A DNA stretch of 64,000 bases from Bacillota bacterium (GTDB lineage: Bacteria; Macinerneyibacteriota; Macinerneyibacteria; Macinerneyibacteriales; DSCS01). The notes beneath the pieces were generated by a model, which searched no databases, was not told where the DNA came from, and worked only from the letters and a program-made list of their open reading frames with translations. This document shows positions 24,857-47,328 of this stretch, piece after piece. The stretch lies in NCBI GenBank assembly GCA_011048995.1, contig DSCS01000062.1, positions 1-64,000 of the forward strand, given 5' to 3'. The first letter of the stretch is position 1, and each line of letters starts with the position of its first letter. The translations under genes and the position numbers were made by a program.

Positions 24857-24865
24857 AGGTTCTCC

Positions 24866-25450: not shown

Positions 25451-25458
25451 GTCCCCTC

Positions 25459-26019
25459 CTACCTGAAATCAGGCTTGATGACGCAACTCATATCAAAGGC
25501 TGACGTCAAAACATCCTGATCTCCAACTTTTTGATTTTGCTCTTTTACTTCACCTATTTCCACAGTATTAAAGAATTCCGATCTCTCCAGGCTTTCGGCA
25601 AAATCCGATACAAGATAATTATTCATCCCGACGCCGTTGACTTTTAAATTATTGCGGTTCAAGTCCAACGAGGTCAGCCAGGTACTGTCAGGGATACGGA
25701 TAAGAATATCCTCCAAAAGTTTCGGAGCGAAGGTGCGTCCTTTATCCAGTTTGCTGAGAAGTTGAAATTTTTTGTCAATATCCTTGAGCTGATTACTCAG
25801 AGTCTTGTACTCCTGATCGAACTTCACATATCTCTTCTTTTCATTACTGACTTCCGTAAAATCTTTATTCAGCTTGCTGATCACACGCAGATTATTGAGG
25901 TAAAATAGAATCAGAATAATGATTACCCCGGCAAAAGCCAAAATAACAGAAAAAGCGCCTATAGGAATATTCCGCCTTCCCCGCCGCTCTTCTTTGGGAA
26001 TAAGATTTATCTCTAACAT
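25459..26019 (-). CDS. pilN: PilN-like pilus assembly protein
   Basis: MLEINLIPKE N-terminus, single TM, coiled coil, LLEDILIRIPDSTWLTSLDLNRNNLKVNG. Confidence 0.9.
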   Translation of the reverse strand: MLEINLIPKEERRGRRNIPIGAFSVILAFAGVIIILILFYLNNLRVISKLNKDFTEVSNEKKRYVKFDQEYKTLSNQLKDIDKKFQLLSKLDKGRTFAPKLLEDILIRIPDSTWLTSLDLNRNNLKVNGVGMNNYLVSDFAESLERSEFFNTVEIGEVKEQNQKVGDQDVLTSAFDMSCVIKPDFR

Positions 26020-26020
26020 A

Positions 26021-27031
26021 TCATCTCACCTTCCTCATGGCCAATCCGATACAGACCGAAAGGGCCGGCCCAACTTTCTGGAGCTGAGGCAAAAGTTCCG
26101 CAGGAGCTTTCACAAACTCTACCGGGTTGAAAACTTCAATATCCGAGGCATCCATTTCATTCTTTAAAAAATCCATCAGGCCCGGAGTCAACGATCCTCC
26201 CCCTGTCAATATCCCTTTGTTGATCATCAACGGGGCAGTCCCCTTAATATATTCCAGGGAACGCTTCATCTGATTGCTTAAATTCTGATTTGTAGCGTCA
26301 AAAAGCTCTTCCAGATCTGAAGCGCTTTTCTCTTCTCCCAATTTTATCCGCTCAGCGACTTCGTAATTGACACCCAGTTCCTTGGCGATGACATCGGTAT
26401 AATGATTGCCTCCCACGGGGATCTCACGGACAAATTTAGGAACCCCGTTAACGACAATGCTGAAACTCGTCTTTTCCGCCCCGATATCCGCAATGAAAAC
26501 AGTTCCTGATAATGGCCCGTGAATGGCCTGATAGGCGTTCTGAATAGCCATGGCAGCCGTATCCACGGCCAAAGGGACAAGTCCCAGGCTTTTCAGCAGA
26601 TTAACGCGGCTGTTCACCACTTCTTTTTTGGCAGCAGCGATTAAAACGTCAGAGCGTCCGCCTTCTTCAGAAACAATAGAAAAATCGTAAAAAATGTCCT
26701 CCCTTTCATAAGGAATATGATTGGGAAATTCGTATTCTAATGTATTCCTTACTTTTTCTTCCCCCACGGCATCAATTGTCACAGCTTTTAAAATCAGGTT
26801 TCTTCCGGAAATAGATATTGATAAATTTTTGTTTTTGATTTTCCGGTTTGTGAAGACAGTTCGGATCACTTCCTCCACAAGATTGGTATCCATGATCTCT
26901 CCCTCCACGATACTCTCGCGGGAAAGAAGGTCATAACCGAAATTTTTTACTTCGATGTCTTTGGATGAAACCTTGATGTCTACGGCCTTCACACTGTAGG
27001 AGCCGATATCCAATCCAATCAATTTTTTCAT
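26021..27031 (-). CDS. pilM: type IV pilus assembly ATPase-like PilM
   Basis: IGLDIGSYSVKAV, FPNHIPY, DIGAEKTSFSIV, ILTGGGSLTPGL. Confidence 0.93.
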   Translation of the reverse strand: MKKLIGLDIGSYSVKAVDIKVSSKDIEVKNFGYDLLSRESIVEGEIMDTNLVEEVIRTVFTNRKIKNKNLSISISGRNLILKAVTIDAVGEEKVRNTLEYEFPNHIPYEREDIFYDFSIVSEEGGRSDVLIAAAKKEVVNSRVNLLKSLGLVPLAVDTAAMAIQNAYQAIHGPLSGTVFIADIGAEKTSFSIVVNGVPKFVREIPVGGNHYTDVIAKELGVNYEVAERIKLGEEKSASDLEELFDATNQNLSNQMKRSLEYIKGTAPLMINKGILTGGGSLTPGLMDFLKNEMDASDIEVFNPVEFVKAPAELLPQLQKVGPALSVCIGLAMRKVR

Positions 27032-29957: not shown

Positions 29958-32566
29958 AATCTCAGCACCTTGACATAGGAAACATGTTTTCCCTTTTTTA
30001 TTTTTATCAGGTAAGTGCCCTGAGGAATATTTTGCAGTGGAAAAAGAAAATTATTTTCACCTGAGATAGCATGAGCCTGTTCTTTCCTCAATTCCGTCAT
30101 TGCAGCATCATACAAGGTGAACTCTACCTGCTCTCCCGGACGAGCCCAAAAACGCAAAGAGACAGTTTCTCCCCGCACGGGATTGGGAAAAGCAAAGACA
30201 CTTTTATCAGGCGCATCTGTTTCAATGCCGGGCCCCGGGGGGCTTGCATAGACCCCTTGCCGAAGCAAACGGTCATATAAAGATTGGGCATAAAGAGTTT
30301 CTCCGCTACGATAAAAAATAAAACCGTCCCGGGGAGGAAGCCATACAGAGGAATCTCCCGTCAAGGGATCCCCCGTCTCTTCTTTAACATCAAAAACCAG
30401 GGTCTTTTGCCCTGTTAAAAAAAGAAAGAGTCTGTTGTACCGCTCAAAGGGGAGGAGAGCGTCAAAACCTTTCAGGGCAAAGCTTTTTTCAGGACCCGTA
30501 GGATTCAGGATTGCCAGCCTTTGAGGCGTCAGCACAATCAGTTCCGTAACCCCGTCACCATCATAATCTAAAGGCCAAAAGTCTTCAACTGCTTCCGAAA
30601 AAGAGCCTAAAGGACTTATCCGGCCTTCATCACTGCAAAGATGATAAAGGCTGGACCCGCTTTTGAGATAGAGGTCTGTTTCCCGTATGCGGAGATCATC
30701 GACATCTGCTGTCACGAAAGAGCCATTCAGAAAAAGAGACCCGCCGCTGAGACGGACGAAATGCGGGCCGGCATAGCCCAAAAAAGAGCAGCTTGAGTGA
30801 AAATCAGATAAAAGGGTATTCCATTCTGTATCACACAAGGCGACTCCCTGAGACGTCCTCAAAAAATAGTAACCGTTTTCCTCACGGGCTTCTGTTAACG
30901 GATCTCCCCATAATACAGCCCATTCCAAAAGTTTATCTCCCGAAGGAAGGCTGTAAAGCGAGAGGTCTGTGACTAAAAAATCATCGGTCAGCAGAAGAGG
31001 GCTTTCCGTCTCAATAGAAAAGAGAAGATCCCCTGAATGGGCCCTCAGATCTGTTTCCGTGGCATAATAGAGGCCTGATGCTAAAAGAGCCCCTTTGCGG
31101 ATAAGCGGAAAATAATCAGGACATATTGATTCCAGGTCAAGGCCTCCGAAATGCTCTGTAGCCTCAATACCGCTCAGGACGATTCCGCTTTTTCCCCCCC
31201 GGTCACAACGGGCTGAGGGGTGAGTATTATCCGAAAAAAGATCCCATGTCCTACTGCTGAAACAATCAAAACGGTCGCCCAAACTTCCGGTATCCCCCAA
31301 TAACCTGTCCAGGTCATTCAAGCCATCAGCTTCTTCCAGATCAATTCCTTTTCCGTTTATTCCGTTGAGATTTTGGGGATCACACCCAATGACCGCCTCG
31401 TTCACATGCCATATAAGCATTCCCGGAAAAGCGCCTTCTACTTCAGACATGATATAATAATCTCCGGCCTTTCCCGTATACTCATAGGCCTGAAAAGGCT
31501 TCCCGATACCCTGGCCATTACGGTATTCGATGAGGAAATATTCATCCTCATTCACATCGACCCGGTACAGATGATTACCGTTCCACAGGTTTTCTTTGAC
31601 ATCACAGGCAAAGGGCTGAAAAACATGACTCCCTCTTTCATTTAAAAGAAGCGGTTCGGCCCATCCCATCCTGATTTTTGTATACCCTGAAGGATGCATA
31701 GGTAAAAATCCCATATAATTCCAGAATCCGTAGCTCATGAGATCCCACATGCCGACACCTGAACTTTTCAGCGTCGTATCATAGGTTGTGGGCATTCCCA
31801 GGACGATTCCCAAAGAGAAGGCAACCGGCCCCAGGCTGCAAAGGGGCATATCGCCATCGGTTCTGTCCTGATCAGCTGTTTCCGGAATAATCAAAACACC
31901 ATTAGCCACATCGCTGCGTAAGGGGGATCCGGTGATGTCTTGATACATCTTTCGTGTGAGCCCGGTTGTCAGAATATCATTCGGAGTGTCTCCGTTAAGG
32001 TCAAACTCTTCGCCGACTCCGGCATGGAGAAGAGCAATAAAATCAAATTGTGTATAGTCGTAGTCCATCTCCGCCAGAGACAGGGCTGTGTCGACAAAGT
32101 CACATAGCCGCTGTTCCTGATTGTCATTACGGCCGAAATCAGCCATGGATGAACCGACCGTCACATAGATGGTTTCAGAAAGGATGATGGAGGAGAAACT
32201 AAAGGCATCCGCCGAAATCTCTCTGAAATATTCGTTCAGGCTGTAATAGGGAAAAGCCGTCTTCCCCTGAGGCGTGCGGAAAAGGCTCTCTTTTCCGACA
32301 ATTCCCAAAAGAGTGTAATAATCATATTGGCCAAAAAGAGCGGAAGATTCCGCTTCCGTACGGATTGCAAAAAGGCCGTCACCTGTTGTCAGGGGATCTG
32401 CATCTTGTTCAAACTCGACGCGGATCACCAAAAGGGAGTATGACCCGGCCCAGATATCCCCCCGAAGGGAAGCTCTCCCTAACGGGGCTTTCAGCAATAA
32501 TTGCGCCTCGCTTCCGTGAAAAAAGAGCAGCAGCAGCAAAATCAGGTCAATCCATTTTGAGCGCAT
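29954..32566 (-). CDS. M6 (immune-inhibitor-A-like) family protein lacking HExxH, with C-terminal sorting-domain-like tail
   Basis: Family-like GMWDLMSYGFWNYMGFLPMHPSGYTKIRMGW and GMLIWHVNEA, but the expected HExxH position reads FSLGI; C-terminus FAFPNPVRGETVSLRF...LQNIPQGTYLIKIKKGKHVSYVKVLRL. Confidence 0.75.
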   Translation of the reverse strand: MRSKWIDLILLLLLFFHGSEAQLLLKAPLGRASLRGDIWAGSYSLLVIRVEFEQDADPLTTGDGLFAIRTEAESSALFGQYDYYTLLGIVGKESLFRTPQGKTAFPYYSLNEYFREISADAFSFSSIILSETIYVTVGSSMADFGRNDNQEQRLCDFVDTALSLAEMDYDYTQFDFIALLHAGVGEEFDLNGDTPNDILTTGLTRKMYQDITGSPLRSDVANGVLIIPETADQDRTDGDMPLCSLGPVAFSLGIVLGMPTTYDTTLKSSGVGMWDLMSYGFWNYMGFLPMHPSGYTKIRMGWAEPLLLNERGSHVFQPFACDVKENLWNGNHLYRVDVNEDEYFLIEYRNGQGIGKPFQAYEYTGKAGDYYIMSEVEGAFPGMLIWHVNEAVIGCDPQNLNGINGKGIDLEEADGLNDLDRLLGDTGSLGDRFDCFSSRTWDLFSDNTHPSARCDRGGKSGIVLSGIEATEHFGGLDLESICPDYFPLIRKGALLASGLYYATETDLRAHSGDLLFSIETESPLLLTDDFLVTDLSLYSLPSGDKLLEWAVLWGDPLTEAREENGYYFLRTSQGVALCDTEWNTLLSDFHSSCSFLGYAGPHFVRLSGGSLFLNGSFVTADVDDLRIRETDLYLKSGSSLYHLCSDEGRISPLGSFSEAVEDFWPLDYDGDGVTELIVLTPQRLAILNPTGPEKSFALKGFDALLPFERYNRLFLFLTGQKTLVFDVKEETGDPLTGDSSVWLPPRDGFIFYRSGETLYAQSLYDRLLRQGVYASPPGPGIETDAPDKSVFAFPNPVRGETVSLRFWARPGEQVEFTLYDAAMTELRKEQAHAISGENNFLFPLQNIPQGTYLIKIKKGKHVSYVKVLRL

Positions 32567-33836
32567 GACGCAAAAACCTTTCTTTTAATTCTCTCAGTGA
32601 AATATTTAATAATTTTGCCATCTGACTTCTGTCTCCCCCTGTCATCTTGATAACACGGGCGAGGATCTCTTTTTCATTCTTATCCAATAACGCCTTCAGA
32701 TCCATACGAGACGTCTGAAGGAAAGAATCGTTATAATAAAGGGTCTCTCCTTCTGTCAAGACAGTCAGTCTTTCAATAAAATTCTTTAACTCCCGGACAT
32801 TGCCCGGCCAGGCGTAGTTTAACATAAAAACTTCCAGATCCGGATGAATATGCTTTTTTCCTGTCTTATACTCCGCATTCATCTGTTTCAAAAAGTGATA
32901 GGCCAAAGGAAGAATATCGTTTTTGCGCTCCCTTAAAGGAGGAACCGTGATCTCCATGACATTGATGCGGAAATAAAGGTCCTCTCTGAAAGCCTTATTC
33001 ATAGCCATGAGAGTCAAATCCCTGTTTGTCGCCGATATCAGATTAAAGTCTAAGGAGACAGGGCGATGGCTCCCTAACCGGGTCACCTGCTTATCCTGCA
33101 GGACACGCAGCAAGCTGACCTGATTTTTGAGTGAAAGCTCCCCGATCTCATCCAAAAAGAGAGTCCCCCCCTCTGCCGCTTCCATTTTCCCTGAACGGGG
33201 AGAGTCGGCCCCGGTAAAAGCCCCTTTTTCATACCCGAACATCTCTGATTCAAAAAGCTCTTCAGGAAGCGCGCCGCAATTAACGGCCACAAACGGCGCA
33301 TGATGGCCTACACGCTTTTTATGAATAGTGGCAGCGATGACTTCTTTGCCCACACCGTTTTCCCCGGTGATGAGAAGATTGATTTTCTTGTCCCCGAAGG
33401 TATTAATTTTTTTCATGAGTTTTTTCATTTTGGGATCATGGAAAATAATATCCTCTTCCCTGTATGAACTGTCCCAAGTGACCTTCTCTGCTGTTTTTTG
33501 CAAGACTTCCCTGATCCGTGATTCATCCCCTGTTTTTTCAATAAAATCAACGGCTCCGATTTTCATTGTTTCCACAGCCCCGGATACCGTGCCGTGCCCC
33601 GAAAGCATGATGACCGGAATTTCAGGGTACCGCGACTGGACAGCCTTTAAGTAGGATATTCCGTCCATTTTCGGCATTTTAATATCCAGGACTAGAATAT
33701 CGACAGGATTATTTTCTAATACTTTATCGGCTTCTTCAGGGTTTTCGGCTCCTAAAAACGAAAATCCCATTTCCGTGATGATCATCTTCATCACACGCCT
33801 GATATTTTTCTCATCATCAACGACTAAGACTGTCAT
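32547..33836 (-). CDS. sigma54-dependent response regulator (NtrC family)
   Basis: Receiver (VDDE, VLDIKMPKMDG), AAA+ (GENGVGKE, GYEKGAFTGADSPRSGK), Fis-like C-terminal HTH. Confidence 0.93.
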   Translation of the reverse strand: MTVLVVDDEKNIRRVMKMIITEMGFSFLGAENPEEADKVLENNPVDILVLDIKMPKMDGISYLKAVQSRYPEIPVIMLSGHGTVSGAVETMKIGAVDFIEKTGDESRIREVLQKTAEKVTWDSSYREEDIIFHDPKMKKLMKKINTFGDKKINLLITGENGVGKEVIAATIHKKRVGHHAPFVAVNCGALPEELFESEMFGYEKGAFTGADSPRSGKMEAAEGGTLFLDEIGELSLKNQVSLLRVLQDKQVTRLGSHRPVSLDFNLISATNRDLTLMAMNKAFREDLYFRINVMEITVPPLRERKNDILPLAYHFLKQMNAEYKTGKKHIHPDLEVFMLNYAWPGNVRELKNFIERLTVLTEGETLYYNDSFLQTSRMDLKALLDKNEKEILARVIKMTGGDRSQMAKLLNISLRELKERFLRHALKMD

Positions 33837-33841
33837 TATAG

Positions 33842-36800
33842 TTATCCGCTCCCTGTCTTAAAAAGAAGATAGATGTCTGTCCCTTCCTCTTCTCTGACAT
33901 CAATGTGAACATGTCCTCCAAACTCCTCCATATATTTTCGAACCAAATAAAGCCCTAATCCGCTACCGCTTTTTTTGTTAGTAAAATAAGGCTCAAAAAT
34001 CCTGTCGAGCACATCCCTGTCCATTCCTCCGGAATAATCCTTTACGTGGATAATCACATGCTTTTCTTCAATTCTACCGCCGGACTCTTCATTAAAGATA
34101 TCATAGTAGGCAGAGACTTCAAGCGAGGCCTTATCGCAGGCCGCCTCTAAACTGTTTTCAACGATGTTTTTTATAATCAATTCAAATTTCTCACTGGAAA
34201 AATAAATTTTCGGCAGATTCTTTGAAAGATGAAGCTCTATGGAGCAGGAAGTAAAGGCAGAAAGAACTTTTTTAAGCCCTTTGGCTACATCAAATTGCCT
34301 GATCTCTTTTTCCCCCTGCAGGGTCTGGGCCTTGAATTTATCAATCAGTCTCTGAATACTTCCCAGTTCTTCATGAATAATGGCATACAGATCCCTCATA
34401 GACTCTTTCAATCCGGAATCCTTTACCCCCTCTTCCGTCATTTTCTCCAGGCGGTTCAAAGAAAAACGGATCGGCATCAGGGGATTTTTCAACTCATGAG
34501 CAAGCTCCTGGGTCAGTTGAAACCATAAATCGAACTTTTCACTGATAATCAGCGAGGTGATATCAGAAATAAGCAGAATATACCCGTATTTGAATTTTCT
34601 GATACTGTACCTGAAAACAGTTCCCTTGTCCCGCAGCTCCCCCTGGCTTTCTTTAAAAAAGTCAACAGGAAGATGCAAGGCCTCGCGGACATCATCTTTA
34701 TAGGAAATATCCGAAACTGTTTTTTTCAGCTCATTATTACATAAGGCCACATGCCCCTTCTCATCATAGGTCACGGCCCCCACAGGAAGAGAGTCGATGA
34801 TATTCTTTAAAAAGTTCTGATTCTCCGTAAGGCTGTTTTTCAACACAGAGAGTCTTTTGACCATATTATTAAAATTGGTGAACAAGACCTTCAGCTCGGA
34901 TACAGGGGTATCCGTTTCTACGCGATAATTAAAATTCCCAGTGCTGATCTCTTTGGTCGCGATAATGATCTTGGACAATGGTTTTAGAATCTGGCCTACA
35001 TTTTTATAGACCAAAAGGATTGTCAGGCCGATTGCAAAAAGCTGTGCAAAAAGAGAGACAGCTAATCCGTCGACGACCTGCCATAACGAAGGCTTGCCCA
35101 TGACTGCAGTCAATTCAAAGATAATACCGCCATAGCGTTCAGACATGAAACGATGCTGCAAGCCCAACCTTGAGTAATCAGAAGACCACATTTCTTTTCT
35201 CGCGAAGATCTCCATGAGTTCACGGCGGGGAATAGAGGACTGCTTCATGTTGACACGGTAACTGTCCTCATCGTGGGAAAGAAGACGGACAGGGCCGTTA
35301 TAAATCGACCAGTTCGCCAAAGATTGATTAAGAGCTTCCGATAGAGAACGACGGCCCTCTTCGCGGAACAGCTCTTCAGAAGGGATCTCCTGTAGTATTT
35401 CTAAAAGTGTTTTTTTATCCTCAAGCAGTCTTCCCTTTAACGTTTCATAAATATCAGAGAGTACGCCTGTGGAATAAAGGAGAAGGTTCGCCGAAAAAGG
35501 GATCAAAAGAAGAAGGAAGACCATTAACATATTCCGTCGAAAGAAATCATTAGCTAAAGAACGCCAGCGTTTGGAAAAAAGCCCCAAAATCAGGAGTACA
35601 GCCAGTTCTGAGATCAAGACAAAGAATGCATATTTCAATCCGATCATCCAGGGGTTTTTAACATAAAGCCTATAATGATCCGATGATGACCCGATGCGTA
35701 TCATATGCATCTTTTGATAGATCTGGGGTTCATAGATCAACGTTGAGAAGATCTCTTTGCCTTTTCTGTAATGGGTGAAAAAAAGTTGGGGGAAATGGGG
35801 TAAATGAATAAAATAATCGTTTTTCAGCCCAATGACCACATTTCCCACAAAAATGTCGTCATAATAGAGCGGTGCTTTATGAAGATGAAACCCGTCTCGG
35901 TAAACAAAAGAGCCCGAAGGAAGATCATGCTGACGAACAGCACAGCCCCAGGCATAATGACTGTACATCTCTCCCCCTTTTTTCTCAAAATAAATAAAAT
36001 TATGATAAGGCTGTTCCGCCAAAGGAGAGCGAAGCCATTTAAAAAAAGCAAAGTTTTCGTCGTCATAATGCACATTTTCTTTTAAAGACCATAAAAAGGT
36101 AGGATCCCGGCGAAGCATTTCCACCGTGTTAAACATCACCCGGGCCGGCTCTGCTTCCATGACTTCCATCTGCCTCCTGGCGACTGAATCATCGATGCCG
36201 GCCGATAATTGGATGGCAATAGGTAGAAACGGGATCAAAAGAAGAAAAAAATAGAAGGATGTAGCGGCTTTAATATTTTTTAAAAAAAAGACAAAAAGAA
36301 AAAGAGCCCCAAACAGTGCGTAAACGAGAAGAATCGGTTCAAGAGTCGTGATCAAAAAAAGAAGGGATATGGAAAGCAAAATCCGATAACGGAGATGGAT
36401 AAAACGGACAATATAAACTGTAATAAAAAAAATAAGTAAAAAAGCAATGAGGGTAAAGCCCTGACTGACAATGATTGTGCCCGTCCAGAAAGCCATTTTT
36501 ACAAAAATCGATGAATGAGAAAAAAAGAGATGCCAGGCGATAAGAAATGCTTCAAGTCCCAAAAATATATTGACCGCCTCTTTCTTCTCCGTAAGGGATT
36601 CTCGGAGAAGGGACAAAAGCATCCGGCATTTCCAGGCCATATAAAGCAAGACGAGGTAAAGCGTCCCTTGGGGGATAAAGGCCACAAAAAAAAGAAAACC
36701 GATGAAAGCAGCCATATCCAGCCGCTTTTCCCGTTTATAGATGAGCAGGGTAAATAACAGGGCCAATAGTATATTGAACAGAAAAAATCTTTTTTTTGTT

Positions 36801-37561
36801 TCGCTCAAAAAGCTGGAGATCGGACGGTCTTCAATTTTGATAATAATATCATCTTCCATTTTAGAATAAAGGGCTTGGGACGAGGAGATATAAAGAGATT
36901 CTCCTCTTGCAAGATCCTGAAAAAGAAGGGGCTCATTATAGATGTAAAATTGTCCCGGGGTAAAATAGAGGCTGATAGGAGTGTCAAATCGTCCCTGAAT
37001 CTGCCTGAGCCAATGAGACTTTGTCTCTTCTGTCCCATACAGATTCGTCAAAAAATGGTTGAGCCCATATAACCTGTTCCCGTGATAAAAACTAAAACAA
37101 AGACTGGCTTCATTCCCTCTGATTACTAATTCGGGAGCAAAAGGCCTCTTTTCCGGAGAGTTGAACCGGGCCTTTCCGCTCCATCGGGAAAGCGTATAAT
37201 CCAAATCCCTTTCTGTATACCCGATATCACTTTCAGGACTGTGCTCACGGCCCACAATTTCATAACGCTTTTCATAAAAGTCAATTTTTAACCGGCTGTA
37301 GGCCGACTCGACAGTATTTCGGATATCAAACAATTTTTTTTCTCTATAATCCCGGTTATGGTAGATGTCGTTTATATTGATCAGATAAAGGAGGCTCAAA
37401 ATCAAAGCCAAAAGAAGAGGGCGGTTTTCCTTTGAAATAAGGGGTGCCCCCAAAGCAATTAAACTAAAGAGAATGATCCAGACCGGGGAGTCAAGGATCA
37501 AGTTCAGATAAGCAATAGAAAGGAGCAGAAGAGCAAAAATCCCTGATGTGCGCCTCTCCAT
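33842..37561 (-). CDS. large NtrY-like membrane histidine kinase
   Basis: 1239 aa, many N-terminal TMs, HAMP-like region, PAS, H-box LAHELKNPLMPIRFSLNRLEKM, HATPase (NSLEAA, DYSGGMD, GSGLGLYLVRKY). Confidence 0.9.
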   Translation of the reverse strand: MERRTSGIFALLLLSIAYLNLILDSPVWIILFSLIALGAPLISKENRPLLLALILSLLYLININDIYHNRDYREKKLFDIRNTVESAYSRLKIDFYEKRYEIVGREHSPESDIGYTERDLDYTLSRWSGKARFNSPEKRPFAPELVIRGNEASLCFSFYHGNRLYGLNHFLTNLYGTEETKSHWLRQIQGRFDTPISLYFTPGQFYIYNEPLLFQDLARGESLYISSSQALYSKMEDDIIIKIEDRPISSFLSETKKRFFLFNILLALLFTLLIYKREKRLDMAAFIGFLFFVAFIPQGTLYLVLLYMAWKCRMLLSLLRESLTEKKEAVNIFLGLEAFLIAWHLFFSHSSIFVKMAFWTGTIIVSQGFTLIAFLLIFFITVYIVRFIHLRYRILLSISLLFLITTLEPILLVYALFGALFLFVFFLKNIKAATSFYFFLLLIPFLPIAIQLSAGIDDSVARRQMEVMEAEPARVMFNTVEMLRRDPTFLWSLKENVHYDDENFAFFKWLRSPLAEQPYHNFIYFEKKGGEMYSHYAWGCAVRQHDLPSGSFVYRDGFHLHKAPLYYDDIFVGNVVIGLKNDYFIHLPHFPQLFFTHYRKGKEIFSTLIYEPQIYQKMHMIRIGSSSDHYRLYVKNPWMIGLKYAFFVLISELAVLLILGLFSKRWRSLANDFFRRNMLMVFLLLLIPFSANLLLYSTGVLSDIYETLKGRLLEDKKTLLEILQEIPSEELFREEGRRSLSEALNQSLANWSIYNGPVRLLSHDEDSYRVNMKQSSIPRRELMEIFARKEMWSSDYSRLGLQHRFMSERYGGIIFELTAVMGKPSLWQVVDGLAVSLFAQLFAIGLTILLVYKNVGQILKPLSKIIIATKEISTGNFNYRVETDTPVSELKVLFTNFNNMVKRLSVLKNSLTENQNFLKNIIDSLPVGAVTYDEKGHVALCNNELKKTVSDISYKDDVREALHLPVDFFKESQGELRDKGTVFRYSIRKFKYGYILLISDITSLIISEKFDLWFQLTQELAHELKNPLMPIRFSLNRLEKMTEEGVKDSGLKESMRDLYAIIHEELGSIQRLIDKFKAQTLQGEKEIRQFDVAKGLKKVLSAFTSCSIELHLSKNLPKIYFSSEKFELIIKNIVENSLEAACDKASLEVSAYYDIFNEESGGRIEEKHVIIHVKDYSGGMDRDVLDRIFEPYFTNKKSGSGLGLYLVRKYMEEFGGHVHIDVREEEGTDIYLLFKTGSG

Positions 37562-37562
37562 T

Positions 37563-38765
37563 TTATTTCGTCTCCCCGATCCGGCGATAACGGATCACAC
37601 TGAACGGTTTTAACAAGAGAGAGGCCTTTATTCCATAGCGTTTCCCGGGATGCCCCCTTTCAAGAGATTCCCCTTCGGGAGAATAAAGGGAGCTGATTGT
37701 AAGAGGAACTGTTTCAGGCTCCAGAGGCTGAAGGGCTTCGTAGGTCTTTCCGATTTCCACGGGAGCTTTGGCCTCCAAAAACCCTTCCCTATCGATATAA
37801 CCCAAGAGATCGTAGGGAGCCGTTGTCCGGGAAGAACTCAATTGAGATTCATACCCTCCCGGAATAAGAAAGCCCGGATGATACCCTCGGTTATTTGCTT
37901 CGAAAAGAGAATCTCTCCAACGAGGATCAGGAGTTTCCCCCCGATAAAACGCATCCAAAAGAAGCCGATAAGCCCGTACGATTGTCGCCACATAGAGGAT
38001 TCCTTTAATGCGCCCTTCGATCTTCAGGCTGGAAACACCGGCAGCGGTCAATTCCCTGATATAGTCATATAGCATCAGGTCTTTAGAATTAAATATATAA
38101 AGACCCCGCTCATCTTCCGTCACCTCGAATAATTCATTCTGACGACTCTCTTCACGCACATACCAACGCCAACGGCAGGGATGAGCGCAATCACCTGCAT
38201 TGGCATCCCGGCCTGTCATATACTTACTCATCAGGCAGCGCCCCGAATAAGCCATACACATCGCGCCGTGAATAAAGACCTCTGTTTCAACGCCTGAATT
38301 GGCCGTTACGGCTCTGATCTCTTCCAAACTCAGCTCTCGCGCTAAAATAACCCTGGACGCCCCCCATTCCTTCCAGGCCCGTGCGCTGGCGCTTTCTGTC
38401 ACGTTTGCCTGTGTGCTGACATGAAGAGGCAGCCGGGGGGCTGACCGGCGGACAAGAGAGAGGACTCCGGGAGTCGAGACGATCACCCCGTCCAGTGGAA
38501 GAGAAGCCATTTTCCGGATAAATGCTTCCAACATCGGCCATTCTTCTTCTCTGGGGTAAATATTTAACGTCGCATACCCTTTTTTTCCTCGTGAATGCAA
38601 AGAGTCAAGAAATACCGCTGCTTCGGAAAATGAAAAATTTCCGCTTCTGGCCCGAAGGTTGAAACCTTCAATACCGAAATAGAGGGCATCGGCTCCAAAA
38701 GCCGCGGCGATCTCTCCCTTTTCCGGAGTACCCGCAGGAGCCAGTAATTCCACTCTTTTCATCAA
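37563..38765 (-). CDS. peptidase U32 family protein
   Basis: LLAPAGTPEKGEIAAAFGADALYFG, EVFIHGAMCMAYSGRCLMSKYMTGRDANAGDCAHPCRWRW, SSLKIEGRIK. Confidence 0.94.
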   Translation of the reverse strand: MMKRVELLAPAGTPEKGEIAAAFGADALYFGIEGFNLRARSGNFSFSEAAVFLDSLHSRGKKGYATLNIYPREEEWPMLEAFIRKMASLPLDGVIVSTPGVLSLVRRSAPRLPLHVSTQANVTESASARAWKEWGASRVILARELSLEEIRAVTANSGVETEVFIHGAMCMAYSGRCLMSKYMTGRDANAGDCAHPCRWRWYVREESRQNELFEVTEDERGLYIFNSKDLMLYDYIRELTAAGVSSLKIEGRIKGILYVATIVRAYRLLLDAFYRGETPDPRWRDSLFEANNRGYHPGFLIPGGYESQLSSSRTTAPYDLLGYIDREGFLEAKAPVEIGKTYEALQPLEPETVPLTISSLYSPEGESLERGHPGKRYGIKASLLLKPFSVIRYRRIGETK

Positions 38766-39757
38766 TACATCCTTTTAGCCTGAAGATGTTCCTGATAGGT
38801 TTTGGAAAAATGATGCGAGCCGTCTTTCTTAGAAACAAAATAAAGATAATCTGTCGATGCAGGCTGAAGCACCGCCCTGATCGAATCAAGTCCCGGATTG
38901 TTAATAGGTGTAGGCGGAAGGCCGAAATTTTTATATGTGTTATAGGGTGATTTGATTTCAAGATCTTCAAAATAGAGCTTCTTCCTGTGCGTTCCTAACG
39001 CGAAGAGAACTGTGGCACAGCTTTCCAGTGGCATTCCGATCTCCATCCGTTTAATAAAGACCTGAGCGATCAGCGGGCGCTCTTCTGCCAGACGCGCTTC
39101 TCCCTCGACAATTGAAGCCAGTGTCAGCATTTCATGAAGGGTCCAGGGAGAGTCTTTGAGTATTGTGTCCAGTTGTGCATCTTTCATTTTTTTTTGCAGC
39201 TGTCTGTTCAGAAAAAGGATAATGTCCCGAGCCTTCTCCCCATGCACAAAATAGTAAGTATCAGGATAGCAATAGCCTTCCAGAGACCCCCCCGGGATTT
39301 TGAGTTCTTCCAAAAGGGCCGGATGACGGTAAAGGCTCAGCATGTCATCCCGGTCGTCAAGAATTCCCTTCTCTTCCAAAAGGCCGGCGATTTGAGCAAA
39401 CTGAAACCCTTCGGGAATCGTTACCTTGATCCCCTTTTTATAACCTGTTTTAAACATTCGAGCTAATTCGACAATGCTGACATACCCCTTGAGAGTATAA
39501 TCGCCGGCATTGATCTTCCATTTGAATATTTTATAAAAGAGCTTGAACGACGTGGGGCTTGGAGTGATGCCCCGTTGATAAAGCGAACGGATCACCGTTG
39601 ACAGATTATCCCCTCTTTTGATCTCCAGATAAACGGTCCCCGGGACTTTCAGGGGCCGAAACCACTCAAAGAAAAAAGCAAAAAGAAGAATGGCTATAAG
39701 GCCCGGGATAGCATATTTCTTAAGAGTTGTAAGATGTGTTTTTTCAAAGATCCTCAT
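38762..39757 (-). CDS. mltG: endolytic transglycosylase MltG
   Basis: Single TM, VTIPEGFQFAQIAGLLEEKGI, LASIVEGEARLAEERPLIAQVFIKRMEIGMPLES, SPYNTYKNFGLPPTPINNPGLDSIRAVLQP. Confidence 0.95.
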   Translation of the reverse strand: MRIFEKTHLTTLKKYAIPGLIAILLFAFFFEWFRPLKVPGTVYLEIKRGDNLSTVIRSLYQRGITPSPTSFKLFYKIFKWKINAGDYTLKGYVSIVELARMFKTGYKKGIKVTIPEGFQFAQIAGLLEEKGILDDRDDMLSLYRHPALLEELKIPGGSLEGYCYPDTYYFVHGEKARDIILFLNRQLQKKMKDAQLDTILKDSPWTLHEMLTLASIVEGEARLAEERPLIAQVFIKRMEIGMPLESCATVLFALGTHRKKLYFEDLEIKSPYNTYKNFGLPPTPINNPGLDSIRAVLQPASTDYLYFVSKKDGSHHFSKTYQEHLQAKRMY

Positions 39758-41934
39758 TGAATAGTCAAATCCTTTCCGTCGTGGCCCAATACGATTTTTT
39801 CTCTTTCTGTCAAATCCATGCGCCCTAAAGCCAGCGCCAAAGGAGCAAAGATATGAATCTGGAAAAGACGCTCCATGGAACGAAGCTTATCCTTTTTGGC
39901 TTTCACTTGCTCCACCAAAAACTGAAGAAGCTTATCCTCCGGCACCCATTGAATATCCCATCTCTCTTTGAGATGATGAAGCAGACTGCGCTGAACGATC
40001 TTTTTGAGCTCTTTATCACGCAGTTCTTTAAAAATAACCACCTTATCAATGATCTCCATGATCTCCGTATCCAAAAGGGCAGCCAGCCCCGAATGAACAG
40101 CATCAACATCATAATCCACTTCACTGTCCGGCGTAAAACCTAATTGTTTTTTCTTTTCTTCATAGGCTTTCACTGTCATAATGACCGTGACACCCGACAA
40201 AGAAGAGATTTGTCCCAGATTATCTGTAAAAGACCCCGACCGGAATATTTCAGCAAAAAAGCGTTGAACATCAGGGCAAGCTTTATCGATCTCCTCCAAA
40301 AAGAGGATGCTTAAAGGATATTTCTGAAGTACCCGGGTCAACGTCGAAGGATACATCTCCCCTTTGGATTTATCGGCATAACCGGTTAATTCCCACAGGC
40401 TTTCCGGCTCTTCAAAACGCGACATATCAAAGACAGATATCCGTTCCGAGTCCTCGAACAAAACATCAGCCAGGCTGCGGATCAACTCTTTTTTCCCTAC
40501 ACCCCGAGGACCCACAAAAAGCATGATGCCGTTAGGCATTTGGGGACTCAGATTAAAAGGAGTCTCCCGTGTTGTGACGATTTCAGCGACACTTTCTATA
40601 GCCTCTTCCTGTCCCACAATAACTTTTTTTAATTTTTCCGAAATGCTGTCATAATAACGCCGGTCCCCGCTGATCCGCCAGGCCGGAACACCCAGGGTCT
40701 CAGAAACGGCCTGATAAAGGTCTTCGGATCTCATCCGTCGGGTCGATTTTGTTCTGGCTTTTAAACGAATCTGAGTCGCCGCCATATCCATCAGCTGTAA
40801 GGTCCCGTCGATTTCACCGGTATTAAAAAACTGCTCTGCCAGATAAAAGGCCTGCAGGGCCAGTGGTGAGGAGATAGAAATATTGTGGAAAGTTTCGATC
40901 TCTTTTTTTGATTCATTAATAATCGTCAACACTTTATCAGGAGAAAGATGTTTCATTTTGATCATATGGACTTTTTCTTTCAAAAAGGGGTCCTGATCCA
41001 ATATCAGCGAAATATTCTCCCTTTTTGAAGAGGCAATGATCCGAAGTATCCCCTGGCGCAGAACAGATTTCAAAAGCATGGGGAGGTCAAGCGGCCCTGA
41101 GCCTGTAAAATCGGGATAGATCTCGTCAAAATAAAGAATCGTTTCCGAATGTTCGGAGGCTTCATTCAGAAATTGACGAAAGAGTTCAACAAATTCGTTC
41201 GGGTCCTTGGCTTGACTCATCATGGCGTCTGTCAGAACATGGAGGACTCGGGGCTCTTCCAGCCGTCCTTCACCCTGGGAAAGCCGATAAGCCAGACCTT
41301 CTGCAAGGAGGCTCTTTTCAATGCCCGGACCGCCTACAAGAAGAGGGACATTGCGGTAAATACGGCTGATAACTTCAAGTAAAGTGGCCGTAATACTCCA
41401 TTCTGCAGCCAAAGGCTTTCTGCTTCTTCGATGCACTAATTCACTGAGGTCCACACTAAACTGGGCTAAAAGGCTTTTATCTTCATTAAAAGAACGTTTA
41501 AGCTCGCCGATATAGATCAGGTCATCCAGAGATGAGAGGGAAACGCCTAAACGGGAAAAGAGGCCCGAGAGCTCCTGATCGGCCTCATAAAGAAGAGCCA
41601 ACAGAAGATGAAGCGGTTTTACTTCAGACTCCTGGGACTCCAAAGCGATAATACCGCTCATACGCAGGGCTTCGCGGGTCTGAGGGCTGATCGCCATATC
41701 TTCATCAGGCTCCTGATTCCCTTTTTCCTCTAAAGCCTCCTGTAAGGTCTTGAGCAACTTTCCCGGATCAATATTGTGAATTTTCAGCCAATACTCGACT
41801 TTTTGATCTCCCAGCTCCAAAAGGGCTGTCATCAGGTGAAGGGGGACAATAATCTGATGGCCTTTGTTAAGGGCATCCGTTTCCGCTTTTTGAATGACTT
41901 GCTGTAATTCATCGCTAAAATTGTACTGTTTCAT
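39754..41934 (-). CDS. ClpA/ClpC-like Hsp100 homologue with degenerate ATPase motifs in both AAA+ modules
   Basis: Two Clp_N repeats; D1 LLVGGPGIEKSLLAEGLA; D2 LFVGPRGVGKKELIRSLAD, ILFLEEIDKACPDVQ, QLGF loop; collinear with ClpC. Confidence 0.88.
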   Translation of the reverse strand: MKQYNFSDELQQVIQKAETDALNKGHQIIVPLHLMTALLELGDQKVEYWLKIHNIDPGKLLKTLQEALEEKGNQEPDEDMAISPQTREALRMSGIIALESQESEVKPLHLLLALLYEADQELSGLFSRLGVSLSSLDDLIYIGELKRSFNEDKSLLAQFSVDLSELVHRRSRKPLAAEWSITATLLEVISRIYRNVPLLVGGPGIEKSLLAEGLAYRLSQGEGRLEEPRVLHVLTDAMMSQAKDPNEFVELFRQFLNEASEHSETILYFDEIYPDFTGSGPLDLPMLLKSVLRQGILRIIASSKRENISLILDQDPFLKEKVHMIKMKHLSPDKVLTIINESKKEIETFHNISISSPLALQAFYLAEQFFNTGEIDGTLQLMDMAATQIRLKARTKSTRRMRSEDLYQAVSETLGVPAWRISGDRRYYDSISEKLKKVIVGQEEAIESVAEIVTTRETPFNLSPQMPNGIMLFVGPRGVGKKELIRSLADVLFEDSERISVFDMSRFEEPESLWELTGYADKSKGEMYPSTLTRVLQKYPLSILFLEEIDKACPDVQRFFAEIFRSGSFTDNLGQISSLSGVTVIMTVKAYEEKKKQLGFTPDSEVDYDVDAVHSGLAALLDTEIMEIIDKVVIFKELRDKELKKIVQRSLLHHLKERWDIQWVPEDKLLQFLVEQVKAKKDKLRSMERLFQIHIFAPLALALGRMDLTEREKIVLGHDGKDLTIQ

Positions 41935-43526
41935 TCTTCCTCTCCCTCCATGCGGCTTAATTCTTTGATCTTCATCAGCTGCTCCTTGGTTTCATCCAAT
42001 GTGGGATCCAGGGCCACCGCTTTCTCCCAGGCTTTTACGGCAAATTCTATGCGGTCCAGTTCATAGAGGGCATTGCCCATGGCTTCATAAGCTTTAGCAA
42101 AGTCAGGCCGCTTTTCAATTGATTTTCTGAAAAGGGGGACCGCTTTCTCGGTCAGGTCTTCTTCTACGAGCAGCATGGCCAGGTTATAATAGCTTTCACT
42201 GAATTCCGGATTCAATTTGATCAGTTTCTTAAAAACATCTTTCGCTTTATCTTTCTCACCCTTTTCGCTGAAAGCCAGCCCCAGGTTGCTGTAAGCTCCC
42301 CAAAGACGGTTATTCAAAGTAATGGCTTCTTTGAAACAATCGACAGCGGCATTGTATTCCTGATTCATCATAAAGGTGAGTCCCGTATTGTTTAAATCAT
42401 CGGCTTTTTTCATACGAATCGCCGATTCTTCACTTTGCAGATACTCTTTTTGCAATTCAGCGAAAGCCTCCATCTTCCCCATCCCGTTGACGAAGCTCAA
42501 GGACATGGCTTTCTGGGATTCCACGCAGATATCCATCCCTTCCCGGATCGTCAGGATATTATCCATACCCGTCTCCACCTTTTCCAGGCGCTGACTCATC
42601 TGATGCAGTATCTCCTGTATGCCCTGTAAAACTTCCAGAGTTCTCTGAGATTCCTCGCCCCGTGATTCGATCCCGCTTTTGATGATCTCTGTGAGTTCCT
42701 CTGTTTGCCCTGATAACGCCGCCAACTCATTTTTCAAAGGAGGATTTTGAGAAAACTGTTCTAAGATCTCCGTATGTTTATCCAGGACTTCGGTAAGGCG
42801 GTTGAAAGAACTTCGATTGTCTGTAAGAAAAGAGGGCAAAATCTCAAGGGTCTCCCTGGCTGATTCGGAGAAAAGTGTCAGTTTGTCAAAAGTCTCTTTT
42901 TGAATTTTGAGAGTCGCGGCCAAAGGTTTTTTAAGCGTTTCCAACAACAGCTTCATTGAAGTCATGGGGTCTTCAGATTCCTGATCCGTTATTTTTTTCC
43001 CGGCCAGTTCCAAAGCGTTTTTTACCGCGTCTTTCAACTCGATCACAGATGATCTCATTTCGCGGGCGGCACTCTCCGTTTCTCCCATCTTCAAGGCCAG
43101 GGGGCCCCCGTCTCCGGCTAATCCGGCGATCTCCTTTAATATGGTGCCGTTTTGTGAAATCAGGTCTTCAAGGGTTTTCCATGTATCCTCACGCCCCGAA
43201 ACGAAAGAAGCTGAGCCCCCTCCCTCTTTGAGAAGTGTAAAGAGATCATCAATTTTCTTCCCGTTTTCCATGGCTTTGAAAAATTCTGTCATGGGTTTCA
43301 AACCGTTATTCAAAAGGCTTCCGATTTTTTTGATCAGGACTCCGTTGTCCGCACTGCTCTTTTTGATGAGTTTACCCAATTTTGTCACATTTTCCTGATT
43401 ATGCAGGTCGATCATCTTAAAAATGCAAATGCGGGCGTCAGTATCGTATAGAAAACACCCTTCTTTCATACAGGAAAGGGATTTCCCCTCTTTGTTCTTC
43501 AGAAAGGGGCATAAATTCTTATCCAT
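41931..43526 (-). CDS. TPR protein with N-terminal cysteine cluster and coiled-coil middle
   Basis: N-terminal C-x12-C-x4-C-x9-C (CPFLKNKEGKSLSCMKEGCFLYDTDARIC); C-terminal tandem TPRs. Confidence 0.8.
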   Translation of the reverse strand: MDKNLCPFLKNKEGKSLSCMKEGCFLYDTDARICIFKMIDLHNQENVTKLGKLIKKSSADNGVLIKKIGSLLNNGLKPMTEFFKAMENGKKIDDLFTLLKEGGGSASFVSGREDTWKTLEDLISQNGTILKEIAGLAGDGGPLALKMGETESAAREMRSSVIELKDAVKNALELAGKKITDQESEDPMTSMKLLLETLKKPLAATLKIQKETFDKLTLFSESARETLEILPSFLTDNRSSFNRLTEVLDKHTEILEQFSQNPPLKNELAALSGQTEELTEIIKSGIESRGEESQRTLEVLQGIQEILHQMSQRLEKVETGMDNILTIREGMDICVESQKAMSLSFVNGMGKMEAFAELQKEYLQSEESAIRMKKADDLNNTGLTFMMNQEYNAAVDCFKEAITLNNRLWGAYSNLGLAFSEKGEKDKAKDVFKKLIKLNPEFSESYYNLAMLLVEEDLTEKAVPLFRKSIEKRPDFAKAYEAMGNALYELDRIEFAVKAWEKAVALDPTLDETKEQLMKIKELSRMEGEEE

Positions 43527-43539
43527 CTCTCCTCCTTTA

Positions 43540-46500
43540 TTATTTGGTCAAATAATGTCCAGTCTCAGATTGAGAGAACTGCTGTTTCTCCTGCTCAATA
43601 GTGTTGCGAATAGCCGTGTATTCGTCATCTTCCACAAATCCCTTCAAATAGTGAAGATAATAGAGAGCTTTTTGGAAAAGATGCAGCTCTCTGAAAGCCT
43701 TGACCAGATTCCGGATAATTTTGATTTCGGGTTCACCCAAGGAGAGAGAATCAAATGTGATCTTTCCCGCCGTAGTGATATAACTCATATAATCCCGTTT
43801 TTTCATGTAATAGTTTAACAGAAGGAACAGCCTCAGTTTTTCATCTTCAGGACGTCCGGGTTCCATAAGCAGTCCATAGGCCCGGTCATAATCGCCGCGA
43901 TTGATCAAAATATCAATAAGAGCCAATTTGTCTGAAGGCTCCCGGCTCTTCTCCAGATAAGAGATCCACGCTTCGTCATTGATTCTTTTTACTTCTTCAA
44001 AGAGAGCCATCTGTTCTTTGACCGACCCGGAAAACTCAAGAGCCCGGTGATAATAATCACGGGCTTCAGCTGCTTTGCCTTTGCGCTTCTTTATATCCCC
44101 GCACATGATGGCATACTTGGCTTTCTGACGGGGCTCCGCATTCGTTTTATCCAAATGGGAAAGAACCTCTTCGATCTTATCCACCTGGTCACTCTGATAA
44201 AGATAAGAAAGGTAATAGGTAAAAATACGATTGTCGTATCCTGTCTTTTCCAGAAGAGAGTCAAACAGTTCGACAGCTGTTTGAGGATGATAAAGAAGGA
44301 GTTTCAAATGTCCTTTCATGTAAGCAAAGGCTTCATCTTTTTCTCCCAGCTTTAAAAGAAGACGTGTCATAATCCGTGTTGTTTTGATATTCTGTCCTTC
44401 ATCATCTGTCTTAGCCAGGCGCTCCTTTAACTCGTCAAGATCCTCTCTGCTCAACCGTTCCAGAGCATCATCCAGAGAGGAGAATGCTTCATCCGTTCTT
44501 CCCAATTCTAAAGCCAGATCGATAAAAAGTCGCCAGACAACACCGGTTGAGATATGATCCAGATCCTTTCTGATTTTATCGATGATCTCTTCCTGATATC
44601 CTGAATCCCCTAATTCCATGGCTCTGACATAATGCGGGACAGCTTCTTCATGTTTTCCCGATTCCCAAAAATAATCTCCTAATTTTGTATAAGCGAAAGA
44701 ATCTTCAGGATAATATTCAGTCATCAAACGCAAAACCTGCATATATTTGAGAAAATACTCTTCCTGCACCGTAATCTCTTTTAAAAACATTACAGCCTCA
44801 TCATAAAGGTCGCATTCCAGATAGTTTTTGATCAGCTCCAGCAGGTAGAACTGATCATCGATGTGGTCACGGGACATCTCTTCATAATAAGTCACCAGAT
44901 TTGCTGCTGACTCCCTGTTGATCTTGACAGCCTGATTAAAAAAGGAGACTGCTTCCTTGTGATTCCCTTTCAGATATTCCATTTTTCCGGCTAATATGCG
45001 AAATCTGAATTCCTGGGGTTTCTCCTCTATAACCGCCCGTATCTCTTCCATGATAAGCGTATCCGTATGCTCGTCTTTTCCCGCCACCTTTTCAAACAGA
45101 TCCAGCATGACATCGTGCTCGCCGATACGCCGGTAAATGAGTCCTAAAATATAATAAAGCCCTGGATTGGGTTTAACGATTTTCCGAATATCGTCAGTGA
45201 TATCCCGCACCATATAAAAATGTTCCATTTCTCCATATTTTAACAAGCGCTGGAAACTTTTTATGACGGTCGTCATATCCTCTCTGTTAAAGCTCAACCG
45301 GGCCAGGGCAATATAGATCCAGGGAATCTCGCCATTCACCGTAAGAGCCTCTTTGATAAAAAGATCCATCTCATTGAAAAGATTCTGTTCCATGGCAATC
45401 TTATAGTAGATCTCCACCAGGCTATTATCCACATAACCACGCCTGACAGTCTCCGCCAGAAGGTTGAGGATATTCCCCCCTTCTCCCTGATTGTTCAAAT
45501 AGAGAGTATAAAGCTGTTCGGTGATCTGATCGAAACGGCCGGCATCAAAAAGGATGTTGACAATAGACCATTGCAATTCTCTGTCATGGGGATTGTTCTC
45601 CAAAAGAGAATCGCAGATCCCTGTTACCCCCTCAATAAGCTCCTGATTGCCGGATACCATGATCTTTTTGATCGCCTCGGTGGTCTTAGCCGGGTCATTC
45701 ATCAGAGCATAAAGATGAGCTGAGGCAAAAATAGCGTAGAGATTCGCCGGATCTTTTGAAAGGATAATAGTAATAAGCTGCACCAACTTTTCGGCAGCTC
45801 CGGGAACAGTCTCTGCTAAATGAATAATCGAACGGTAAATATCCTGTACGGCATGATAATCCAGCTTAATAATATCGCCGATAAGGCGCAAGGCCTTATC
45901 TCCCATTTTTTTATCAATATAGATCCCCAGAAGAAGAGTCCGGATCTTTACGGATTTTTTAGACCCTTCCACTACCTTCTCAATGCCTTGAATAGCCTGT
46001 TCCGTCTCGTCGGGGTACCTGTCCATGAGCTCTTTATAATACCGGAAAGCACTTTTCAGATCCCCTCTGTAAAGGGAGAGATCCGCCATCAGATGAATTC
46101 CCGGAAGGGATTGGGACAAATCTGCATTTTTTAGTTTTTCAGACAAATAATCCGCATATCCCTTGTCTATGCGGAATACTTCACTATAGGCTTTGACCGC
46201 CTCTTCAAGCTGCCCCTCATTAAGCTTCATGTCTCCCAAAAGCTTATAAGCTGTGCTTTTATCAGCGACTTTATCTAAAAGCTCTTTTAATAAAGGTTCA
46301 ATATCCGGAGATGAAAAATCTTTGATTTGCGTCAGTTTTCGAAAAGCTTCGTCATATTGCCCTAATGCCATCTGAAAACGGCATTGGGCCAAAAGGATAG
46401 GCGTCCGGGGGCCGGTCTTCAGATAAATATCAGTCAAATATTCTTCCAAAAAGGACAACTTTTCAGGATCTTTTTCATTTTCCGCTAACCGGGTAATATA

Positions 46501-47328
46501 AAAAACTGACTTTTCGTAATTCTCACCGTAATAGTAAATATCTGCCAAAGACTTCAGCCCCTGAGGCGTTTGCTCAACAGATCCGATAAAAGGCTCTAAC
46601 CGTTCCAGTGCAGCGGGTGCTAAGGCATGTCTGATCTTTACGGCAGAAAGAAGATGCCCGGTGGCTGCTTCTGTCTCCCCCAAGGCCAATTCCGTAAGCC
46701 CGGCATAATAGAAAGGAAAAGGATTGACACTGTCTAATCCTGAAATCTCCTCAAGAAGCGTCTTCATTTTTTTCAAAAGGTCTTTTATACCGTTTTCTAA
46801 AACTCTTTGAACGGGAGTAAACGCTTCTTCTTCCTTTTTCAAAAGAACGCGGACGATGACAAGAGAACATAGAAGGTCAAAATTCTTTTTAAAGACCCCC
46901 TCTTCCCCTGAGACTTTGAGAAGCTTGTCCATCTTTTCAGACAATTCTCTTTCCAGTTTTTGAAGCTCTTCGACTTTTGTCACTCTCAGGACAAGAGCTG
47001 CATTTTTATACTCTTTTCTTTGGATATAGAGATCAAAAAGAAAAAGATCAGCCGCTTTAGAATATGGAAAAGCTTGGCGGAAATCCTGTTTAATGTACCC
47101 GATGACATAATCCGGAGCTTTGATCTTATATTTGACGATCTTGCTTAGAGTCTTAACGGCATTCTCATCATCTTTCTGAAAAGAATAGACTTCGACCAGC
47201 TTCCACAAAAGGTCGCCGTCGTCAGGATACTGCAACAAAGCATCCTGCAATTTATACATCGCATCAGTATAATCTCCGGCGCGGCATATCTTGTCAACTC
47301 TTTTGAGAAGTTTGTCGTTTTTCCCCAT
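43540..47328 (-). CDS. giant TPR-repeat protein (1262 aa)
   Basis: Continuous TPR-like helical repeats, no signal peptide seen. Confidence 0.85.
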   Translation of the reverse strand: MGKNDKLLKRVDKICRAGDYTDAMYKLQDALLQYPDDGDLLWKLVEVYSFQKDDENAVKTLSKIVKYKIKAPDYVIGYIKQDFRQAFPYSKAADLFLFDLYIQRKEYKNAALVLRVTKVEELQKLERELSEKMDKLLKVSGEEGVFKKNFDLLCSLVIVRVLLKKEEEAFTPVQRVLENGIKDLLKKMKTLLEEISGLDSVNPFPFYYAGLTELALGETEAATGHLLSAVKIRHALAPAALERLEPFIGSVEQTPQGLKSLADIYYYGENYEKSVFYITRLAENEKDPEKLSFLEEYLTDIYLKTGPRTPILLAQCRFQMALGQYDEAFRKLTQIKDFSSPDIEPLLKELLDKVADKSTAYKLLGDMKLNEGQLEEAVKAYSEVFRIDKGYADYLSEKLKNADLSQSLPGIHLMADLSLYRGDLKSAFRYYKELMDRYPDETEQAIQGIEKVVEGSKKSVKIRTLLLGIYIDKKMGDKALRLIGDIIKLDYHAVQDIYRSIIHLAETVPGAAEKLVQLITIILSKDPANLYAIFASAHLYALMNDPAKTTEAIKKIMVSGNQELIEGVTGICDSLLENNPHDRELQWSIVNILFDAGRFDQITEQLYTLYLNNQGEGGNILNLLAETVRRGYVDNSLVEIYYKIAMEQNLFNEMDLFIKEALTVNGEIPWIYIALARLSFNREDMTTVIKSFQRLLKYGEMEHFYMVRDITDDIRKIVKPNPGLYYILGLIYRRIGEHDVMLDLFEKVAGKDEHTDTLIMEEIRAVIEEKPQEFRFRILAGKMEYLKGNHKEAVSFFNQAVKINRESAANLVTYYEEMSRDHIDDQFYLLELIKNYLECDLYDEAVMFLKEITVQEEYFLKYMQVLRLMTEYYPEDSFAYTKLGDYFWESGKHEEAVPHYVRAMELGDSGYQEEIIDKIRKDLDHISTGVVWRLFIDLALELGRTDEAFSSLDDALERLSREDLDELKERLAKTDDEGQNIKTTRIMTRLLLKLGEKDEAFAYMKGHLKLLLYHPQTAVELFDSLLEKTGYDNRIFTYYLSYLYQSDQVDKIEEVLSHLDKTNAEPRQKAKYAIMCGDIKKRKGKAAEARDYYHRALEFSGSVKEQMALFEEVKRINDEAWISYLEKSREPSDKLALIDILINRGDYDRAYGLLMEPGRPEDEKLRLFLLLNYYMKKRDYMSYITTAGKITFDSLSLGEPEIKIIRNLVKAFRELHLFQKALYYLHYLKGFVEDDEYTAIRNTIEQEKQQFSQSETGHYLTK

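Follow-up and report, generated by a model that had tools for sequence, protein, structure and literature searches.

Canonical Clp ATPases generally need nucleotide and several loops for hexamer formation and tight binding to ClpP, and MecA-type adaptors control ClpC through its M-domain. TorsinA is activated by LAP1 and LULL1, which donate an arginine finger. In S. aureus ClpC, a PhiGF loop docks into ClpP and its mutation abolishes binding; loop residues preceding the PhiGF tip also contact the ClpP hairpins (PMC12521514). ClpR, an inactive ClpP paralogue of plastids and cyanobacteria, is conserved inside the Clp system, and the engineered Walker-B-mutant ClpC1-TRAP, a hydrolysis-dead full-length ClpC, still associates with Clp cores (PMC7966870). 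Mycobacterial ClpC2, a partial homologue of ClpC1, serves as a sponge for cyclomarin and represses itself (PMC10030653). Dead Clp relatives such as ClpR and ClpC2 are already known; in our literature searches, which were largely open-access, we found no description of a natural full-length two-ring Clp pseudo-unfoldase with a retained ClpP-docking segment, nor a matching pseudo-ATPase or degenerate-Walker Clp.

The window analysed here, a stretch of 64,000 nucleotides from a Mcinerneyibacteriota genome, contains a minus-strand open reading frame (39754–41934) that begins with ATG, has no internal stops and encodes a 726-aa protein, here termed pseudo-Clp. All three orthologues compared match Pfam Clp_N, AAA_2 and AAA_lid_9, and the top NCBIfam model is ClpA (TIGR02639), whose cut-off of 993 bits lies well above the 255.8 bits scored here. 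The N-terminal domain (residues 1–140; 41515–41934, minus strand) comprises two Clp_N-type repeats, with a Pfam Clp_N match at residues 96–138, and is modeled as mostly helical with pLDDT mostly 80–94. A short linker (40729–40761, minus strand) occupies the site of the coiled-coil M-domain of canonical ClpC, which is missing from pseudo-Clp in the alignment with both ClpC paralogues of its own genome. With only three sequences as input, AF2 modelled D1 poorly (mean pLDDT 61), and a model from a 16-sequence alignment reached a mean pLDDT of 83.9. The closest PDB folds found by Foldseek are ClpC, ClpA and ClpB chains, led by the ClpC–ClpP model 9a66 and S. aureus ClpC 9rai; because the alignment included canonical sequences, this match is consistent with a Clp fold and is not independent proof of one. 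Pfam, AF2 and Foldseek together place an N-domain before two tandem AAA+ modules, the arrangement of class-1 Hsp100 proteins, and so bear out the collinearity with ClpA/ClpC (N, D1, D2) proposed in an initial annotation.

The comparison set consists of three orthologues from the three genomes of the phylum that were compared, two of them from one genus. Beside the window protein, these are a same-genus orthologue from Candidatus Mcinerneyibacteriota bacterium (JAFGWL010000051.1, 72% identity) and a same-order orthologue from Candidatus Mcinerneyibacterium aminivorans (VSIX01000035.1, 35–36% identity). When 383 genomes spanning the bacteria were searched with a profile, the three orthologues scored 1298 bits or more and everything else 284 bits or less. 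No further orthologue was found in a pattern scan of 85,462 species genomes, with patterns including the octapeptide KAYEEKKK common to all three, and neither search revealed one outside the phylum. ClpA-like best matches in other phyla were considered as further pseudo-Clps and rejected for those checked, the nucleotide sites and fingers being essentially canonical in all 27 additional matches.

Motor motifs were aligned with those of the genome's own two canonical Clp paralogues and of canonical Clp proteins from other phyla; site conservation was judged against 32 canonical Clp proteins. All three orthologues differ at 58 of the 134 sites that are at least 90% conserved in this reference set, and keep the canonical residue at 53. 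Positions G206, T482, D547, N589, N627 and R628 are canonical in 32/32 reference proteins and R320 and R321 in 31/32, a near-fixation that argues against chance variation as the source of the substitutions in pseudo-Clp. All motifs below lie on the minus strand. In D1, Walker A (41311–41334) reads GGPGIEKS, with GRPGIDKS and GSLGINKD in the orthologues, the glycine being replaced by Glu, Asp or Asn (GxxGI[EDN]K[SD]). The D1 pore-loop position (41191–41214) reads QAKDPNEF, with KDPN for the aromatic KYRG, and the D1 arginine-finger position (40969–40989) reads PFLKEKV, in which FLKEKV stands for ALERRF and the RR pair is gone. In D2, Walker A (40489–40512) is GPRGVGKK, with Thr replaced by Lys, and GYVG is gone from the pore-loop position (40345–40383; GYADKSKGEMYPS). 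The D2 arginine-finger position (40045–40071) reads DTEIMEIID, with TEIMEIID for PEFVNRVD and the NR pair gone. In every orthologue the D2 Walker A Thr is Lys (Lys482) and the sensor-1 Asn is Lys (Lys589). Absent from all three are a GxxGxGKT/S Walker A in either module, the fingers RRF (D1) and NR[IV]D (D2), and the aromatic pore loops of both rings. With P-loop, finger and pore-loop residues lost in both rings and sensor 1 lost in D2, pseudo-Clp is predicted to be incapable of an ATP hydrolysis cycle, of supplying arginine fingers and of gripping substrate, and the predicted loss of ATPase activity is strongly supported by the sequence.

The initial annotation had already read GGPGIEKS and FLKEKV in D1, and GPRGVGKK and TEIMEIID in D2, as departures from the catalytic motifs, and the alignment agrees on each. 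Its list is correct in every item and incomplete, as it overlooked four further losses: the pore loops of D1 and D2, the sensor-1 Asn of D2 and the M-domain. The D2 Walker B (40288–40308) does read ILFLEEI, with FLEEID for LLDEIE (Asp to Glu, following Glu kept), as it had reported for the window protein; however, D547 is Glu in two orthologues and Asp in the third and most distant, which reads FLDEID. Erosion of both modules holds for hydrolysis, trans-acting fingers and pore loops but was overstated for the nucleotide contacts. The D1 Walker B, ILYFDEI (41119–41139), is retained and invariant in all three orthologues, as are K207, D270–E271, K481, E548 and R685, the last within a sensor-2 position (KLRSMER, 39868–39888) in which GAR has become KLR.

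As both Walker A lysines remain, it is possible that D2 still binds nucleotide. Pseudo-Clp could then be a non-motor nucleotide switch, in which D2 either binds ATP/ADP through Lys481, Glu548 and Arg685 or is locked by Lys482 and Lys589, with the nucleotide state controlling assembly only. The 11/11 invariance of LFVGPRGVGKK and the fixation of Lys482 and Lys589 speak for selection acting at the D2 pocket and not for drift; against productive binding stand the Thr-to-Lys change at the Mg-coordinating position and the loss of the sensor-1 Asn and of both D2 finger-motif residues, and the new D2 residues could be purely structural. We regard such a switch as possible but on the doubtful side. 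It is compatible with ClpP docking and thus overlaps the best explanation developed below, so that the confidences attached to the readings do not sum to one.

Pseudo-Clp evolves fast, at 35% identity between genomes whose canonical ClpC proteins share 72%, and this divergence is what would speak for a decaying pseudogene or for a frameshift or assembly artefact. The frames of 726–730 codons are nevertheless intact in all three genomes, and the protein contains invariant blocks and sits in a conserved operon. Between the window and the same-genus orthologue, differences at codon positions 1, 2 and 3 amount to 0.24, 0.14 and 0.56, with positions 1 and 2 constrained, and dN is 0.21 with dS saturated, a pattern that indicates coding constraint. 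Decay or artefact consequently has a negligible likelihood, in line with the original view that pseudogene decay was improbable. The substitutions also recur in both other genomes of the phylum, the check that the initial annotation had put forward. Loss of catalytic residues common to the orthologues, combined with coding constraint, is what identifies pseudo-Clp, as judged from sequence, as a conserved pseudoenzyme. An origin of pseudo-Clp by recent duplication of the ClpC of its phylum is unsupported: the stem is long (3.4 + 2.41 changes per column) and the attachment in the tree ambiguous.

No other invariant run in the protein is as long as MTVKAYEEKKKQLGF (40135–40179, minus strand), identical at 15/15 positions across the three orthologues despite 35% overall identity. 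It comprises the sensor-1 strand, with its Asn-to-Lys change, and a ClpP-docking-loop-like segment, and ends at an LGF-type tip (40135–40143). The next-longest runs are LFVGPRGVGKK and then ILYFDEI. Shuffling the conservation pattern produced a run as long as MTVKAYEEKKKQLGF in 0/20000 trials, a figure that is only a rough guide because shuffling takes no account of how conserved sites naturally cluster. Codons differ synonymously at 10 of the 15 positions between the window and the distant orthologue, which argues for selection on the protein and disfavours a DNA- or RNA-level cause of the invariance. The canonical ClpC proteins of the three genomes, 72% identical between the window and the distant species, vary in the matching segment (QQKTLGF vs NNKRVGF). 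In the D2 loop that follows sensor 1, pseudo-Clp carries an [LIVA]GF tip with an invariant flank; the retained LGF first recorded at the ClpP-loop position is therefore upheld more strongly than originally put, as it lies in the protein's longest invariant run. A lone LGF is weak evidence of docking, and the weight lies with the conserved flank; by analogy only, this flank fits the contacts made with ClpP by the corresponding residues of S. aureus ClpC. As MTVKAYEEKKKQLGF also includes the sensor-1 strand, its conservation could instead serve folding.

Because the most protected surface of pseudo-Clp is the loop with which Clp ATPases engage ClpP, we propose a docking mechanism. Pseudo-Clp would assemble alone or in a mixed ring with canonical ClpC, and its LGF loops would insert into the hydrophobic pockets of ClpP. 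Once docked, it could act as a non-motor adaptor, cap or competitor, presenting clients bound by its N-domain or by TPR proteins, or limiting the access of ClpX and ClpC. The best explanation, to which we give an even chance, is that this full-length class-1 Hsp100 (ClpA/ClpC-type) protein has become a pseudo-unfoldase, dead for hydrolysis yet maintained by selection, and that it docks on ClpP, or else joins ClpC rings, to serve as a non-motor adaptor or regulator. In its favour are the motor loss, the conservation across the phylum, the invariance of the loop, the co-occurrence of ClpP, ClpX and ClpC, and the operon link to two TPR proteins. From these we infer ClpP docking, the oligomeric state, the adaptor or cap role and a physical link to the TPR proteins, and the whole suggests a motor turned docking or regulatory part. 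Against it stand the nucleotide and loop requirements of canonical Clp noted above; ring formation may fail in a protein that lacks arginine fingers, and the retained Walker A lysines, D1 Asp-Glu pair, D2 Glu and sensor-2 Arg leave some use of nucleotide by D2 possible. A motorless ring could also serve as an ATP-independent ClpP cap, its LGF loops filling the ClpP pockets, opening or closing the gate without ATP and feeding in TPR-held clients, an idea that we rate as a long shot.

Turning to the other Clp components, each of the three genomes encodes one ClpP with ClpX beside it, a canonical ClpC with an LGF/VGF loop and a canonical ClpC-like ATPase without it. Three paralogues thus divide the features of ClpC: motor with docking loop, motor without loop, and loop without motor. 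The second canonical ClpC-type ATPase (810 aa; contig C1 of the window's genome, 95707–98025) keeps its motor motifs and lacks the LGF ClpP loop, which is missing also from its orthologues in both other genomes of the phylum. A role for pseudo-Clp as the genome's only Clp ATPase, which the initial annotation had named as fatal to its pseudo-unfoldase reading, is rejected given ClpX and the two canonical ClpC-type ATPases present beside ClpP. That reading stands insofar as the protein is conserved, is no pseudogene and coexists with these components, and requires amendment in that the nucleotide contacts are not all eroded.

The presence of a canonical ClpC with LGF in the genome would also allow pseudo-Clp to act as a dead subunit within canonical ClpC hexamers, throttling or retargeting them, with its own LGF serving only to keep the mixed ring on ClpP. 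A precedent is provided by the Walker-B-dead plastid ClpC1-TRAP, for which assembly with native ClpC into inactive mixed oligomers, and jamming of Clp cores, have been suggested (PMC7966870). Pseudo-Clp is, however, only ~25% identical to its own ClpC and separated from canonical Clp by a very long stem branch, lacks the M-domain and has lost both faces of the inter-subunit site; we consider this form of regulation distinctly unlikely.

Regarding genomic context, the gene order is the same in all three genomes: Era (assigned from its sequence), a TPR protein (1262 aa), a second TPR protein (531 aa), pseudo-Clp, MltG, U32, a sensor kinase and a response regulator. In one locus (L006), a longer antisense ORF displaced the MltG stretch in the gene call, and that stretch was left out of the comparison. 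In the window, the syntenic 531-aa TPR protein (41931–43526, minus strand), with four invariant N-terminal Cys, overlaps the pseudo-Clp start by 4 bases, and its 1262-aa syntenic partner lies upstream (43540–47328, minus strand). The MltG/YceG endolytic transglycosylase gene (38762–39757, minus strand; Pfam YceG 3.7e-82, TIGR00247 above cut-off) overlaps the pseudo-Clp stop by 4 bases. A promoter and terminator scan gave no clear operon boundary. The smaller TPR protein has an N-terminal CPF-C-C-C module and a coiled coil, and the TPR pair is conserved in the phylum. Further along the window, a 1239-aa histidine kinase (33842–37561; HAMP, HisKA, HATPase_c), whose N-terminal part is very long and lacks a Pfam match, adjoins a response regulator (32547–33836), and five minus-strand genes (21858–27031) resemble a PilM-PilN-PilO-PilP-PilQ type IV pilus set in size and order, as seen from the beginnings of their sequences.

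This arrangement raises the alternative that the Clp fold has been reused, independently of ClpP, to partner the two neighbouring TPR proteins, with LGF kept for another contact. The gene trio is fixed in three genomes with overlapping or closely spaced frames, and pseudo-Clp (36% identity across genomes) and the TPR proteins (25% and 29%) diverge at comparable rates, which exceed those of MltG, U32 and Era (49–54%). Yet no part of pseudo-Clp is more conserved than the segment whose PhiGF tip sits at the ClpP-loop position, and a similar, identically ordered TPR1-TPR2 pair occurs in an unrelated genome of another phylum (L085, 7845–9326 and 9359–13246) with no Clp gene as neighbour, so the TPR pair does not need Clp. 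A ClpP-independent scaffold is, in our assessment, unlikely. If pseudo-Clp docks, as in the preferred reading, ClpP would be open to regulation by a ring-type partner that has no motor, and the protein would be a natural separation-of-function variant for the role of the docking loop apart from ATP-driven unfolding.

Compared with ClpC/ClpA, pseudo-Clp shares the N-D1-D2 order, the fold (AF2, Foldseek) and the position of the PhiGF loop; it differs in the loss of ATPase sites, arginine fingers, the pore loops of both rings and D2 sensor 1, in the absence of an M-domain, and in scoring far under the ClpA family cut-off. The proposed motorless cap would be analogous in role to ATP-independent proteasome activators. 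Like LAP1/LULL1, pseudo-Clp would be a degenerate AAA-like partner of an Hsp100-related ATPase; unlike them it has lost the finger arginines, and a LAP1-like role as arginine-finger donor is rejected on sequence. Apicoplast-encoded ClpM was considered as a further possible comparator. Mycobacterial ClpC2 is likewise a non-motor ClpC homologue beside a canonical ClpC, but it is partial, whereas pseudo-Clp keeps both AAA+ modules and the ClpP loop. ClpC1-TRAP is engineered and retains its pore loops and fingers, whereas the inactivation of pseudo-Clp is natural and much wider. Finally, ClpR is a dead paralogue on the peptidase side of the Clp system, and pseudo-Clp is one on the ATPase side.
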